A stretch of 64,000 bases of DNA, from positions 1 through 64,000 of the forward strand of contig CADEGF010000009.1 in the NCBI GenBank assembly GCA_902826815.1, given 5' to 3'. Source of the DNA: an uncultured Mycobacteriaceae bacterium. Lineage in GTDB: Bacteria; Actinomycetota; Actinomycetes; Mycobacteriales; Mycobacteriaceae. The position numbers and the translations under genes are program-made. A model generated the notes under the pieces. That model was given only the letters and a program-made list of their open reading frames with translations. It ran no database searches and had not been told where the DNA came from. Below are positions 59,439 through 63,999 of this stretch, in pieces. How positions within the stretch are numbered: position 1 is the first letter of the stretch; each line of letters opens with the position of its first letter.

Positions 59439-60798
59439 ACCCCGCATCTCGGGGTAGGCGCAACGTCTCGATCAGCGTGGTGGCCAGCAGTGCGCCCAGC
59501 ACGAGGTATGCGTACGGGTATGAGGTCAGCACGCTGAGCAGCAGCGCCGCGACCGCGATGCCGAGACCCGCGGCGAGTTCCTGGACCGACGAGTTGAGGG
59601 TGTTCCCGTGGGTGAGCTCGTCACCCTCGATGGCTGAGTACGCCAGGGTGTTGTACGCGGTGAAGCCGATGGATCGCAGCGCCCCGCTGACATAAAGAAC
59701 GGCCGCGATGATGACAATCGAAAGTCCCGGCCGAAGCAACGCGAGCAGCCCGAAGCATCCGATCGATGCGATTCCGTTGACCAGCAGCACATTACGGATG
59801 CCGAATCTGCGCATCAGCGGAGTGGTGGCCGGTTTGATGGTGAGGTTGCCAAGGAATAGCGCGGCGACCATGAGGCCCGCGCTCAGCGGTGTCCAGCCGA
59901 AGACGAACTGAAACTGCAGCGGCAGCAGGAACGGCACCGCGGTGATCACCATGCGATAGACCGACCCCGCCGTCACGGTGATGCGCAGCGTCTGCTCGCG
60001 AAGAACCTTCAGCCGCACCAGCGGCGCATCCGTGTGCAGTAGATGCCGAATCGCCCAGCCGAGCAACATGATTGCGACGGCCACCAGGACACCGACCAGC
60101 AGCCAGTCGGTTTCGCTCACGTGGATCTGCTCGAGCGCGATGAGGGCCGACGCGATCCCGAGCCCTATCAGCAGCATGCCGCGCCAGTCCAGGGAACGCA
60201 CCGACGGCGTCGGCTCACCGTGGATGAGCTTGAGCGCCAGGATGAATCCGACGATGCCGATCGGAATGTTGACGAGAAAGATCCATCGCCACGACGTGAA
60301 TGTCGCGATCGCCCCGCCCAGTGCGGGCGCGATGACGGGTGCGGCCAGCGCGGGCCAGGTGAGCAGGGCGATGGCCCGGACGAGATCGGTTTTTTCGGAG
60401 TAGCGCAGTACGGCCAGCCTGCCGACCGGAACCATCATGGCGCCGCCGACACCCTGCAGAACCCGCATGCCGACCAGCATCGGTAGCGACACGCTGGCAG
60501 CACAGCCGATCGAGGCGACAGTGAACACCGCGATGGCGGCGATGAATACCCTGCGCACGCCGAACCTGTCGGCCATCCAACCGGTCGCGGGTATCAGCAC
60601 CGCGACCGTGACCAGGTAGGCAGAGATCGCGACGTTGACGTTGACCGCTGCGACGCCCAACGACTCGGCGATGCGCGGGATGGCAGGCGCGATGATGGTC
60701 GCGTCCAGAATCTCCATGAAGAACGCGCCCGCGACCAACAGGGCCATGCCACGGGGAAATGACGAGCCTGACGGCTGGGCGGGCGTCGGGTCGGACAT
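59422..60798 (-). CDS. MFS exporter, DHA2/EmrB-like
   Basis: This 458-residue transporter has 13-14 hydrophobic segments. The opening FMEILDATIIAPAIPRIAESL and the motif GWMADRFGVRRVF point to the drug:H+ antiporter 2 group. ATG at 60798 is favoured over TTG at 60807 because TAGGTT lies 7 nt upstream of it. It is divergent from the carboxymuconolactone decarboxylase-like gene. The substrate is unknown. Confidence 0.87.
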   Translation of the reverse strand: MSDPTPAQPSGSSFPRGMALLVAGAFFMEILDATIIAPAIPRIAESLGVAAVNVNVAISAYLVTVAVLIPATGWMADRFGVRRVFIAAIAVFTVASIGCAASVSLPMLVGMRVLQGVGGAMMVPVGRLAVLRYSEKTDLVRAIALLTWPALAAPVIAPALGGAIATFTSWRWIFLVNIPIGIVGFILALKLIHGEPTPSVRSLDWRGMLLIGLGIASALIALEQIHVSETDWLLVGVLVAVAIMLLGWAIRHLLHTDAPLVRLKVLREQTLRITVTAGSVYRMVITAVPFLLPLQFQFVFGWTPLSAGLMVAALFLGNLTIKPATTPLMRRFGIRNVLLVNGIASIGCFGLLALLRPGLSIVIIAAVLYVSGALRSIGFTAYNTLAYSAIEGDELTHGNTLNSSVQELAAGLGIAVAALLLSVLTSYPYAYLVLGALLATTLIETLRLPRDAGSHVSG

Positions 60799-60826
60799 CG
60801 CCGTCAACCTAACCTGCCGTCGGTGC

Positions 60827-60853
60827 TGTCACACATCGGCGGGCTGTGCCGTC
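60827..60853 (+). promoter_or_regulatory. ECF41-type sigma factor promoter
   Basis: TGTCACA (60827-60833), a 16-nt spacer and CGTC (60850-60853) match the ECF41 promoter signature as I recall it (TGTCACA-N16-CGTC). It ends 8 nt before the ATG of the neighbouring decarboxylase-like gene, so the transcript would be leaderless or nearly so. The ECF41-type sigma factor gene lies next to that gene. Confidence 0.8.
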
Positions 60854-60861
60854 TTCCCTAT

Positions 60862-61497
60862 ATGACACAGAAAACGAGGATCGCTCCCCTGCCGCCGCAG
60901 CGCGCATCGCTGCTGACCAGGCTGATGTACAAGTTCGCCAAACGCCGGTTCGGCGAGGTGCCGGAACCGTTCACCGTCGCCGCCCATCACCCGCGGCTGC
61001 TGATGGCCAACGGTGTCCACGAGATGCTGCTGCAGTCGGCATCCAAGAAGGTGCCCGCCAACGTGCGCGAGCTGGCCGTGTTTTGGACGGCGCGCACGGT
61101 CGGATGTTCGTGGTGCGTCGACTTCGGCTCGATGTTGATTCGCCTCGAGGGCCTCGACGTCGAACGGCTCAAGCATGTGGACGAGTACGCAACATCACCG
61201 CTTTTCACCGACGACGAACGCGCTGCCATCGCCTACGCCGACGCCATGTCGACCGATCCGCACACCATCACCGATGAGCAGGTCGACGACCTTCGGCGCC
61301 GCTTCGGCGACGACGGGGTGATCGAGTTGACCTACCAGATCGGCGTGGAGAACATGCGGGCCAGGATGTACTCAGCGCTTGGCATCACCGAACAAGGCTT
61401 CAGCTCGGGTGACGCGTGCCGGGTGCCGTGGGCTGAGGCCGACGAGCGCTCGCGCGAGGAGCAGACTACCGAGGACTCCGCATCGGAGAGCCGTTGA
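60862..61497 (+). CDS. carboxymuconolactone decarboxylase-family protein
   Basis: This 211-residue alpha-helical protein has the AhpD-like motif CSWC (C82, C85) preceded by E70, the usual proton-relay or peroxidase residues of the family. ECF41 sigma factors are known to be encoded beside carboxymuconolactone decarboxylases, oxidoreductases or epimerases. ATG at 60862 is supported by the ECF41-type promoter just upstream and the lack of a Shine-Dalgarno. It overlaps the convergent sigma gene by 32 bp. Confidence 0.87.
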   Translation: MTQKTRIAPLPPQRASLLTRLMYKFAKRRFGEVPEPFTVAAHHPRLLMANGVHEMLLQSASKKVPANVRELAVFWTARTVGCSWCVDFGSMLIRLEGLDVERLKHVDEYATSPLFTDDERAAIAYADAMSTDPHTITDEQVDDLRRRFGDDGVIELTYQIGVENMRARMYSALGITEQGFSSGDACRVPWAEADERSREEQTTEDSASESR

Positions 61498-62377
61498 ACT
61501 TGTCGGGGTTCGCGATATCCCATATGGCGCAAACCTTTCCGTCGCGCACCGTCATCGCGGTCACCCGCGGCGACATCTCGGGATAGCCGCCGTCGGCGGC
61601 GGCACCCGGCGTGTAGCTGCCGAGCTCGCCGTTGACTAGGGCCAGCTGGGCGGTCGCGAGGAAGTTCGGCCCGTACCTATGGGCGAGCCCGAGTAGGAAC
61701 CGCGCGACCTTGTCCGGCCCGTGGATGACGCGAGCCGCCGTCGGCGCCATTCGGTTGGAGTCGCCGGTGAAGGTCACCTCCGGATGGAGAAGGTGCACAA
61801 CGGCATTCAAATCACCGGCGGCCAACGCGGCCATCAAGGACCCGACCAGTTCGTTGTGGGTGGCTGCCGGCACCGATGCCGGCGCGGAGGTGACGGCCCG
61901 CCGGGCCCGGGACGCCAACTGGCGCGCCGTGGCGTCGCTGACGCCGAGCACCGGCGCGATCTCGGCGAACGGCACCGCGAAGCCGTCGTGCAATACGAAG
62001 GCCACCCGCTGGTCGGGCGTCAACCGCTCCAGCACCACCATGGCCGCGAACCTCGCGTCCTCACCCGCCACAACGGCCTCGAGCGGATCGTTGCCGTCGA
62101 AGCCGGTCACCACCGGTTCTGGTAACCACTCTCCGACGTAGGTCTCGCGCCGATGTGCCGCCGAGCGCAACCGGTCAAGGCCCAACCTGCTGACCACCGT
62201 CGTCAGCCAGGCCCGCAGGTCGGTGATCTCGCGCGAACGCTCGTTGCGATCCCAGCGCAGCCATGCGTCCTGGACGACGTCTTCGGCGTCGGCGAGAGTT
62301 CCGGTGAGCCGATACGCCACAGCCAGCAGATGCGGACGTAGATCCTCGAACTCGTCGACTCGCGTGCTCGCGGTCAT
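61466..62377 (-). CDS. sigJ: ECF41 sigma factor, SigJ-like
   Basis: This 303-residue sigma factor has region 2 (LAVAYRLTGTLADAEDVVQDAW), the linker hallmark WLPEP (84-88), region 4 (PFAEIAPVLGVSDATARQLAS) and a fused SnoaL-like C-terminal domain (about 175-303) that controls activity in place of an anti-sigma factor. It matches M. tuberculosis SigJ in architecture. TAGACT lies 6 nt before the ATG (leaderless). The neighbour carries a promoter of the type it should read. Confidence 0.9.
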   Translation of the reverse strand: MTASTRVDEFEDLRPHLLAVAYRLTGTLADAEDVVQDAWLRWDRNERSREITDLRAWLTTVVSRLGLDRLRSAAHRRETYVGEWLPEPVVTGFDGNDPLEAVVAGEDARFAAMVVLERLTPDQRVAFVLHDGFAVPFAEIAPVLGVSDATARQLASRARRAVTSAPASVPAATHNELVGSLMAALAAGDLNAVVHLLHPEVTFTGDSNRMAPTAARVIHGPDKVARFLLGLAHRYGPNFLATAQLALVNGELGSYTPGAAADGGYPEMSPRVTAMTVRDGKVCAIWDIANPDKFNGSPMRSPR

Positions 62378-62490
62378 GAAACAAGTCTAGAAGCTCGCAT
62401 CGGTTACTGATTTCGTCGCCCGTCATGACCCTGTGAACGATTTCGGTGTACAACTCACAGAATCTCCACTGGAACCGTATATTTCCGCAC

Positions 62491-63999
62491 ATGGCAATCA
62501 CGGAAGCTGCGGCTCCGGCGGTCGGCGATAAGGGTCTGCAGGCCGGTGCCATCGGTCTGGTCGGCAACGTGGTCATCGGCTTGGCCGCCGTCGCGCCCGC
62601 CTACAGCCTGGCGGCCACCCTCGGCTACGTCGTTCTCGCCGTCGGCGAGAAGGCGCCGTCGATGTTCATCCTCGCCTTCATCCCGATGTTGCTCGTGGCG
62701 TTCGCTTACAAGGAGTTGTCACAGGACACGCCCGACTGCGGCACCACCTTCACGTGGGGTACCAAGGCATTCGGGCCGTGGATCGGATGGATCGGCGGCT
62801 GGGGCCTTGCCGTATCGGCGATCATCGTGCTCGCCAACGTGGCCGAGGTCGCCGCGATCTACCTGTTCAAGTTCCTTGGCCTGGACGAGCTTGCGGAGAA
62901 CCTGTTCGCCAAGGTGCTGCTCGGGTCGTTCTTCATCGTCGCGATGACGCTGCTGTCCGCCCGCGGCATCGTGGTGTCCGAAAGGGTCCAGAACGTCTTG
63001 ATCGCCATTCAGTTCGGCGTGCTGATCGTCGCGAGCGTCATCGCGCTGATCCGGGTGTTCTCGGGTACCGCGGGCGCACAGGCGATCAGTCCGCAACTGT
63101 CGTGGCTATGGCCCTCCGGCCTCGACCTGTCGTCGATCGCGGCGGCGATCATCCTGTGCGTCTTCATCTACTGGGGGTGGGACGCCTGCCTGGCCGTCGG
63201 CGAGGAAACCAAGGATCCGGGTCGCACACCCGGCATCGCCGCGTTGATCACCACGCTGATCCTGGTGTGCACCTACGTGCTGGTCGCTTATGCGGTGCAG
63301 TCGTTCTCCGGGTTCGGTGACGTCGGTATCGGCCTGAACAACGCGATGAACACCGACGACGTGCTCACCGTGCTCGGTGAGCCCGTCGCAGGTCCGATTC
63401 TGGCGTCGCTGCTGCTGTTGACGGTTTCGGTGTCGGCGCTGTCATCCACCCAGACGACCATCCTGCCGACCGCACGCGGCACGCTGTCGATGGCGGTCTA
63501 CGAGGCCATCCCGAAGCGGTTCGCCACCGTCCACCCGCGCTATATGACGCCCGCATTCGGCACTATCGTGATGGGCCTTTCGGCGCTGTTCTTCTACCTG
63601 CTGCTGACCTTCCTTTCGGAGAACGCACTCGCCGATTCGATCGCCTCGCTTGGCCTCGCAGTGGCGTTCTACTACGGCATCACCGCGTTCGCGTGCGTGT
63701 GGTACTTCCGCGGGACCCTGTTCGAATCGGTGCGGAACTTCTTGTTCCGCGGCCTGTTTCCGTTTCTCGGCGGGGCTTTCATGGCGGCAGCGTTCATTAT
63801 CAGCGCCAAGGACATGATCCAGCCCGATTACGGCTACACGGCGTTCGGTTCGATCGGCGGCGTCTTCGTCCTCGGTGTCGGCATGCTGGTACTGGGTATC
63901 CCGCTGATGCTGGCCTGCTTCGCATTCGGCACCAAGCGGTTCTTCCGCGGTGAAACGCTGAACGCGGGCACCGAAGTCAAGGTCCCCGACGTCTTCTAG
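62491..63999 (+). CDS. APC-superfamily amino-acid permease
   Basis: This 502-residue transporter has about 12 spans. The first is AIGLVGNVVIGLAAVAPAYSLA, and GEETKDPGRTPGIAALITT is the typical APC loop. ATG at 62491 is chosen because TATATT lies 7 nt upstream and it begins MAITEAAAPAV; an upstream ATG would lack that. The gene is complete, with its stop at the window end. The substrate is unknown. Confidence 0.88.
   Translation: MAITEAAAPAVGDKGLQAGAIGLVGNVVIGLAAVAPAYSLAATLGYVVLAVGEKAPSMFILAFIPMLLVAFAYKELSQDTPDCGTTFTWGTKAFGPWIGWIGGWGLAVSAIIVLANVAEVAAIYLFKFLGLDELAENLFAKVLLGSFFIVAMTLLSARGIVVSERVQNVLIAIQFGVLIVASVIALIRVFSGTAGAQAISPQLSWLWPSGLDLSSIAAAIILCVFIYWGWDACLAVGEETKDPGRTPGIAALITTLILVCTYVLVAYAVQSFSGFGDVGIGLNNAMNTDDVLTVLGEPVAGPILASLLLLTVSVSALSSTQTTILPTARGTLSMAVYEAIPKRFATVHPRYMTPAFGTIVMGLSALFFYLLLTFLSENALADSIASLGLAVAFYYGITAFACVWYFRGTLFESVRNFLFRGLFPFLGGAFMAAAFIISAKDMIQPDYGYTAFGSIGGVFVLGVGMLVLGIPLMLACFAFGTKRFFRGETLNAGTEVKVPDVF

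Follow-up and report, generated by a model that had tools for sequence, protein, structure and literature searches.

We propose, as the likely reading of the locus, a SigJ/ECF41 module in which the sigma factor SigJ would read the promoter of a neighbouring carboxymuconolactone decarboxylase-like (CMD) gene and the resulting CMD mRNA would be leaderless. The locus was found in the window, i.e. the whole stretch of DNA analysed, 64,000 nucleotides of a contig from an uncultured Mycobacteriaceae bacterium. The ECF41 group, its promoter consensus and its CMD target had already been established by Wecke 2012 (PMC3426412).

The CMD-sigJ locus

The promoter consists of TGTCACA at 60827-60833, a spacer of 16 nt and CGTC at 60850-60853, followed after 8 nt by the ATG at 60862-60864. 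A preliminary description of this DNA had placed TGTCACA-N16-CGTC 8 nt before the ATG, and direct reading and a pattern search gave the same coordinates. The features of the locus, with their conservation in the two sets of relatives introduced below, are:

60827..60833, + strand: -35 element TGTCACA of the ECF41-type promoter (GTCAC in 81/81 loci and in 75/75 non-redundant N16 sites)
60834..60849, + strand: 16-nt spacer (N16 in 80/81 loci, N17 in 1; N16 in 91/92 SigJ genomes)
60850..60853, + strand: -10 element CGTC (81/81 loci; 92/92 SigJ-carrying genomes)
60854..60861, + strand: gap of 8 nt from -10 to ATG, predicted to be untranscribed (8 nt in 81/81 loci and 88/92 SigJ genomes; 9 nt in 4/92)
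60862..60864, + strand: start codon ATG, predicted +1 to +3 of the transcript, judged from the S. meliloti ECF41 start 9 nt past CGTC
60862..61497, + strand: AhpD/carboxymuconolactone decarboxylase-like (CMD) gene, 211 aa, CSWC motif, predicted SigJ target
61105-61128, + strand: stretch of the CMD gene coding for CSWCVDFG
61466..61497, no strand: tail-to-tail overlap of the CMD gene and sigJ, 32 nt (overlap in 30/80 loci, window included)
61466..62377, - strand: sigJ, ECF41 sigma factor with fused SnoaL_2 domain, 303 aa
62384..62389, - strand: TAGACT, 6 nt before the sigJ ATG, likely a housekeeping -10 giving a leaderless sigJ mRNA (TANNNT similarly placed in 64/80 loci)

The overlap between the 3' end of the CMD-like gene and the sigma factor gene had likewise been described before, though not the orientation of the two genes. 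The CMD gene is on the + strand and the sigma gene on the - strand, and they therefore overlap tail to tail as a convergent pair and not as an operon. An operon was rejected on the same ground in the 80 loci measured and in 92/92 genomes.

Only one match to TGTCACA/CGTC with a spacer of 14-18 nt is present in the 64-kb window. Shuffled versions of the window gave a mean of 0.43 such matches, and 35 of 100 shuffles contained one or more; a lone motif in one window is therefore unremarkable. What raises the motif above chance is its position and its conservation in 81/81 loci.

The sigma factor is SigJ

The NCBIfam model PRK09636 identifies the window sigma protein as SigJ with 412.8 bits (cut-off 271), and TIGR02957 (SigX4) stays at 243.7 bits, under its cut-off of 323.25. 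Pfam finds Sigma70_r2 (50.6 bits), Sigma70_r4_2 (44.7) and, barely passing its cut-off of 27, SnoaL_2 (27.2), i.e. sigma regions 2 and 4 followed by a C-terminal extension with a SnoaL-like domain. The closest solved structure is that of M. tuberculosis SigJ (PDB 5xe7, 466 bits), which matches residues 3-301 and thus nearly the full length; the comparison with M. tuberculosis was one of proteins. The WLPEP motif in the linker, a feature of ECF41 (PMC3426412), is present in the window protein and in 77 of the 80 SigJ proteins scanned, window included; the scan did not find it in the other 3. Pfam, the SigJ model and WLPEP thus agree with the preliminary description, which had called the protein an ECF41 sigma factor with WLPEP and a SnoaL-type domain.

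The neighbours of the pair are genes for an MFS transporter and an amino-acid permease, and there is no anti-sigma gene among them. A COE gene is adjacent, as in about 70% of the ECF41 loci surveyed (PMC3426412). The ECF41 consensus TGTCACA-N16(+/-1)-CGTC, expected before the COE gene and/or the sigma gene, is found before CMD and not before sigJ. The ECF41-type promoter and neighbourhood, also claimed earlier, are in agreement with PMC3426412 and with the sets of 81 and 103 loci, which overlap. Control of activity by the C-terminal extension has been reported for the family (PMC3426412).

The source genome has seven ECF41-like sigma genes, SigJ included. Four of the six other paralogs pass the curated cut-off for SigJ, SigX4 or SigI; the remaining two, scanned as partial stretches, do not. 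The genome search for TGTCACA-N16-CGTC that had been suggested for this locus was carried out with spacers of 16 or 17 nt and gave 6 exact sites. Two of these look like promoters, the window site and one before an oxidoreductase-ECF41 operon on contig 42; the remaining four are found within or next to reading frames of unrelated genes, and a wider regulon in this genome was rejected on this account. The contig 42 locus (L088) is a second ECF41 module, with an oxidoreductase-like gene followed by an ECF41 gene, TGTCACA-N17-CGTC, and a 41-nt leader containing the ribosome-binding-like GAAAGGA. Contig 8 carries two adjacent pairs of an oxidoreductase-like and an ECF41 gene (L090 and L091), and the ECF41 consensus site was not found in their examined flanks.

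The CMD protein

The product of the target gene had been described as carboxymuconolactone decarboxylase-like. This stands as far as matches in the PDB go (debrominase Bmp8 with 1.4e-10, a CMD-family protein with 5.4e-8, AhpD with 3.4e-4), but the similarity is distant: the Pfam search found no family at E 0.001, and all NCBIfam scores are under their cut-offs (TIGR01926 42.5 bits against 81.8, TIGR00778 20.9 against 27.8, NF053654 68.9 against 310). By its sequence the protein would belong, as a remote relative, to the AhpD/CMD superfamily. Its CxxC is invariant in the 81 loci, as CSWCVDFG in 80 and CSWCIDFG in 1. In AhpD peroxidases the histidine four residues past the second cysteine has a catalytic role. 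This histidine is present in the aligned chains 2gmy, 2ijc and 7xw1; the CMD protein does not have it, and as glycine replaces it in all 81 orthologues an AhpD-type peroxidase activity is not to be assumed. From its family one would expect a small AhpD/CMD-like thiol protein which probably handles a reactive or foreign compound.

Conservation of the promoter among relatives

The first set of loci consists of the window and the best 80 of 369 relatives of the CMD protein; all of these 80 are from mycobacteria. Each of the 81 loci has NGTCAC[AG], a spacer of 16 nt (80 loci) or 17 nt (1 locus), CGTC, and an in-frame ATG exactly 8 nt further on. The first base of the -35 element is T in 59 loci and C, G or A in 22. 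For the conservation profile the N17 locus was left out, and removal of near-identical loci reduced the other 80 to 75. Among these 75 non-redundant N16 sites neither GTCAC nor CGTC varies (100% conservation), and the seventh base is A in 96%; the columns 5' of the -35 box drop to background conservation within about 3 nt.

The ATG at 8 nt is the sole start codon position common to all 81 loci. In-frame starts further on are each confined to a minority, at most 17/81 (62 nt behind CGTC), and ten loci have a second in-frame start codon 2 nt behind CGTC (9 ATG, 1 GTG). A CMD start other than the ATG at 8 nt was rejected, as no alternative is common to the 81 loci, though the codon at 2 nt may serve as the start in the ten. 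The distance from Met1 to a conserved arginine, parsed in 69 of the 81 loci, varies from 3 to 9 residues while the 8-nt gap does not vary, so length changes are tolerated behind the ATG and none are seen before it. The fixed spacing is in part a consequence of shared ancestry.

Because the first set was a best-80-of-369 selection we added a second, evenly drawn sample of 118 genomes of the genus; the two sets overlap. SigJ, counted at E 1e-90 or better, is found in 92 of the 118 genomes and a CMD orthologue in 103. The pair is complete in 92 genomes; 11 have CMD without SigJ, 0 have SigJ without CMD, and 15 have neither, several of these last being incomplete. G082, whose sole CMD relative is at 36%, was left out of the orthologue count. 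The two genes lie convergently on one contig in 92/92 pairs, and in 63 of these the aligned ends are no more than 100 nt apart.

The promoter was read in all 103 CMD genomes, in 44 by the exact pattern and in 59 from the upstream DNA. All 92 SigJ genomes have CGTC. The gap to the ATG is 8 nt in 88 of them and 9 nt in the other 4 (G001, G026, G031, G037), and the spacer is 16 nt in 91 and 17 nt in 1. Their -35 elements are TGTCACA (47), CGTCACA (34), TGTCACG (5), CGTCACG (3) and GGTCACA (3). It should be noted that a strict search for TGTCACA will miss many sites because only these 47 of 92 genomes have it.

The 11 CMD genomes without an intact SigJ differ: the -10 element is altered in 9 (CATC in 8, CGCC in 1) and CGTC is kept in 2. 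The sequence TGTCACA-N16-CATC-N8-ATG is found before CMD, one copy per genome, in G004, G009, G018, G024, G042, G052, G092 and G097 (L214-L221). Since promoters and first residues are alike in these eight genomes, it is safer to take them as one or a few events than as eight. In five of them the hexamer that stops 6 nt short of the ATG is CATCTT, which resembles a YANNNT -10. The CGCC genome is G088, in which SigJ and CMD are both in pieces; CGTC is kept in G075, 9 nt from the ATG and again with both genes in pieces, and in G085, 8 nt from the ATG and near a contig end. In the two genomes of the loci L222 and L223 both genes are in pieces, as if decaying jointly. As CMD is kept with CATC in the eight genomes and with CGTC in G075 and G085, CMD can outlive SigJ. 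ECF41-like genes persist in all 10 of the 11 genomes that were searched for them.

The predicted transcription start

In S. meliloti TGTCACA-N16-CGTC has been placed 9 nt in front of the transcription start of the CMD-rpoE9 operon (Schluter 2013, PMC3616915). In a table of PMC6180224 this promoter is likewise printed up to the ninth nucleotide behind CGTC. Other rows of the table have the start base, in lower case, as their last letter; as the bold start mark is lost for the S. meliloti row, the start was read from the printed end of the promoter. Nine nt past CGTC is the A of the ATG in our locus, and the CMD transcript should therefore be leaderless. Judged from the spacing and this comparison the CMD mRNA very probably starts at the A of the ATG. 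The leaderless transcript was a prediction of the preliminary description and is one here, and it fits both the comparison of the 81 and 103 overlapping loci and the published ECF41 start.

Leaderless genes are known from mycobacteria: 26% of the M. tuberculosis genes with a primary start (PMC3898074) and over 38% of the M. marinum primary starts (PMC8022548). In M. marinum translation is efficient with a leader of less than 4 nt but not with one of 4 nt or more (PMC8022548), a limit which would explain why only gaps of 8 and 9 nt occur. The predicted CMD mRNA is like these leaderless genes in having its start codon at or beside the 5' end (PMC3898074; PMC8022548). They use TANNNT/YANNNT, however, whereas here the promoter of an alternative sigma factor would hold the fixed distance.

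ECF41 promoters elsewhere usually have leaders. PMC3426412 gives leaders of 22/23 nt for the R. sphaeroides and B. licheniformis targets but has 31 and 32 nt in its Table 5; our guess is that counting from the end of the -10 would fit this discrepancy of 9 nt. No publication linking SigJ or ECF41 to a leaderless CMD transcript was found in a literature search, for which supplements and most subscription papers were beyond reach.

The spacing in searches not tied to CMD

The pattern TGTCACA-N16-CGTC-N{0,30}-ATG was searched in the 118 genomes of the genus. It gave 145 rows, 52 of them at a distance of 8 nt; the other 30 distances have a mean of 3.1 rows and a maximum of 10. The 8-nt site precedes a CMD gene in 44 of the 52 (43 of 51 fetched loci, and the window). 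At the other 8 of the 51 the following genes are membrane-protein-like (L115, L116, L149, L124), enoyl-CoA hydratase-like (L114), an ECF41-related frame (L123) and short frames (L100, L129), the names of non-ECF genes being assigned by eye. The loci L115, L116 and L149, from three genomes, have TGTCACA-N16-CGTC-N8-ATG before a membrane-protein-like gene of 135-148 aa, which is by this arrangement a candidate for a second leaderless ECF41 target; a SigJ-like gene was not found in the fetched DNA around them. L114 has back-to-back ECF41-like sites between genes which by eye are DoxX-like and enoyl-CoA hydratase-like; the spacer of one site ends in GCGGGAT, and L100 has a similar site.

The same search in 88 genomes of the class gave 7 of 56 rows at 8 nt, and 3 of these 7 are from the genus, leaving 4 of 51 outside it. 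Of these four loci, L152 has the site before an ECF41-like gene, L153 and L154 have it before epimerase-like genes with ECF41-like genes behind them, and L151 has it before an unrelated frame. Eight rows have a distance of 2 nt (L224-L231), and by tblastn four of them are directly before ECF41-like sigma genes and four are not. Among the former L224 has its ATG at 38 nt. The ATG at 2 nt is in frame in L225 and L228, which can also start further on, at 38 and 23 nt respectively; L228 has a GTG at 8 nt in addition. In L229 no start was found within 40 nt. At L226 and L230, which do not precede ECF41-like genes, a long frame begins at the 2-nt ATG. Leaderlessness as a rule for all of ECF41 is not supported by these rows.

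Expression of sigJ

Intergenic gaps and the regions upstream of sigJ were studied in 80 of the 81 loci, L029 being left out as SigJ is absent from the DNA examined. A TANNNT ends 6 nt (50 loci) or 7 nt (14 loci) before the aligned sigJ start in 64 of the 80, window included; at any other distance from 0 to 39 it is found in at most 4 loci. A loose ECF41 pattern is present in only 1 of the 80 upstream regions and not in that of the window, and autoregulation of sigJ through an ECF41 promoter is thus unsupported. The commonest ECF41-COE layout makes positive autoregulation by co-transcription possible; here it is not expected, since the genes are convergent and sigJ is without an ECF41 promoter.

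The gap between CMD and sigJ falls into three groups: overlap to 152 nt (43 loci), 455-486 nt (11) and 792-3471 nt (26), which suggests insertions between the convergent genes. Convergence, and overlap in 30 of the 80 loci, leave room for mutual interference of CMD and sigJ transcription. No terminator between the two genes was found by a simple scan of 60700-62600, in which there is one terminator-like site at 60876-60889.

Within the window a TANNNT is also located 6-7 nt before the starts of three neighbouring genes: the MFS transporter (60806-60811, - strand), sigJ (62384-62389, - strand) and the amino-acid permease (62478-62483, + strand). Together with the spacing of the CMD promoter this makes four adjacent genes look leaderless.

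A model for the SigJ module and its alternatives

The model hypothesizes that sigJ is transcribed from its own housekeeping-type promoter and that SigJ is kept inactive by the fused SnoaL-like domain, as reported for the family, until some signal arrives. Active SigJ-RNA polymerase would then read TGTCACA-N16-CGTC before CMD, as the consensus, its strict conservation and the co-occurrence with SigJ suggest. Transcription would begin at the A of the ATG, given the fixed spacing and the published ECF41 start, and yield a CMD mRNA with neither leader nor Shine-Dalgarno sequence. The proposed order is thus housekeeping-driven sigJ, post-translational activation, leaderless CMD mRNA. ECF41 sigma factors do activate TGTCACA/CGTC-type promoters in B. 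licheniformis/B. subtilis and in R. sphaeroides (PMC3426412).

Another ECF41 paralog, or several, with the same -35/-10 specificity could be the main reader of the CMD promoter, SigJ being one input only. The genome offers seven ECF41-like genes, SigJ included, and the contig 42 paralog has TGTCACA-N17-CGTC before its own oxidoreductase operon. We nevertheless regard this as unlikely, because CMD and SigJ co-occur (92 genomes with both, 0 with SigJ alone) and are convergent in 92/92, and because the -10 has changed in 9 of the 11 genomes without an intact SigJ though ECF41-like genes persist in the 10 searched. That the housekeeping sigma factor drives CMD and the ECF41-like box is a relic is highly improbable: in the window CGTCTT and CCGTCT, and not TANNNT, occupy the places that end 6 and 7 nt in front of the ATG, and CGTC is found in 92/92 SigJ-carrying genomes. 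In its favour, 73% of the primary starts of M. tuberculosis have a TANNNT with its centre 7-12 bp upstream (PMC3898074), and CATCTT 6 nt before the ATG in five of the eight SigJ-less CATC genomes comes near the YANNNT of M. marinum (PMC8022548).

The alternatives so far concern who reads the promoter; the CMD protein could also be not, or not only, a target but a part of signal sensing by SigJ, for example by making or removing a ligand of the SnoaL-like domain. The tight linkage of SigJ and CMD in the 118 genomes would agree with this, and a signalling role of COE is one of three hypotheses in Wecke 2012 (PMC3426412). In the same paper it is the fused domain that is said to regulate, and the COE genes are given as targets; we hold a sensing role to be doubtful. 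We prefer the model in which SigJ reads the CMD promoter.

A more speculative extension, which we put forward tentatively and think rather unlikely in its entirety, is that the whole SigJ circuit runs without Shine-Dalgarno initiation. Both mRNAs would be leaderless, that of the sigma factor made from a housekeeping promoter and that of the target from the ECF41 promoter; strong transcription of the target would continue through the tail-to-tail overlap into sigJ and dampen it, and the spacing would be selected to give a leader of 0-1 nt so that the response works when canonical initiation is limited. Lineages losing SigJ would hand the promoter to another sigma factor, CGTC becoming CATC with the start unmoved.

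Relation to known ECF41 systems and meaning

The modules of B. licheniformis and R. sphaeroides share with the window WLPEP and a C-terminal extension, a CMD neighbour with CxxC, the lack of an obvious adjacent anti-sigma gene, and a TGTCACA-N16-CGTC-type promoter before CMD (PMC3426412). Their CMD mRNAs have a 22/23-nt leader with a ribosome-binding site, whereas the spacing in the window predicts none. Most COE genes in the survey run in the direction of the sigma gene, while the window genes are convergent; convergent ECF41 loci number 9/373 in Table 4 of the 2012 survey and may include members of the mycobacterial set (PMC3426412). RpoE9 (ECF41) of S. meliloti with SMb20029 has a CMD target, the same promoter and a start 9 nt past CGTC, but there CMD and sigma gene form one operon, unlike the convergent pair of the window. 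What the present comparison of sequences adds is the fixed and apparently leaderless spacing, the constant convergence, the variable first base of the -35, and the lack of a recognizable ECF41 promoter on sigJ.

The publications we found name hardly any target of mycobacterial SigJ, one being sigI, named as regulated by sigJ in a network paper (PMC4821874); our analysis supplies a predicted one. It also provides a promoter model adapted to mycobacteria, [TCG]GTCAC[AG]-N16-CGTC-N8-ATG, and the SigJ-less genomes with a changed CMD -10 amount to a natural experiment. A simple distance rule would tie an alternative sigma factor to predicted leaderless translation.
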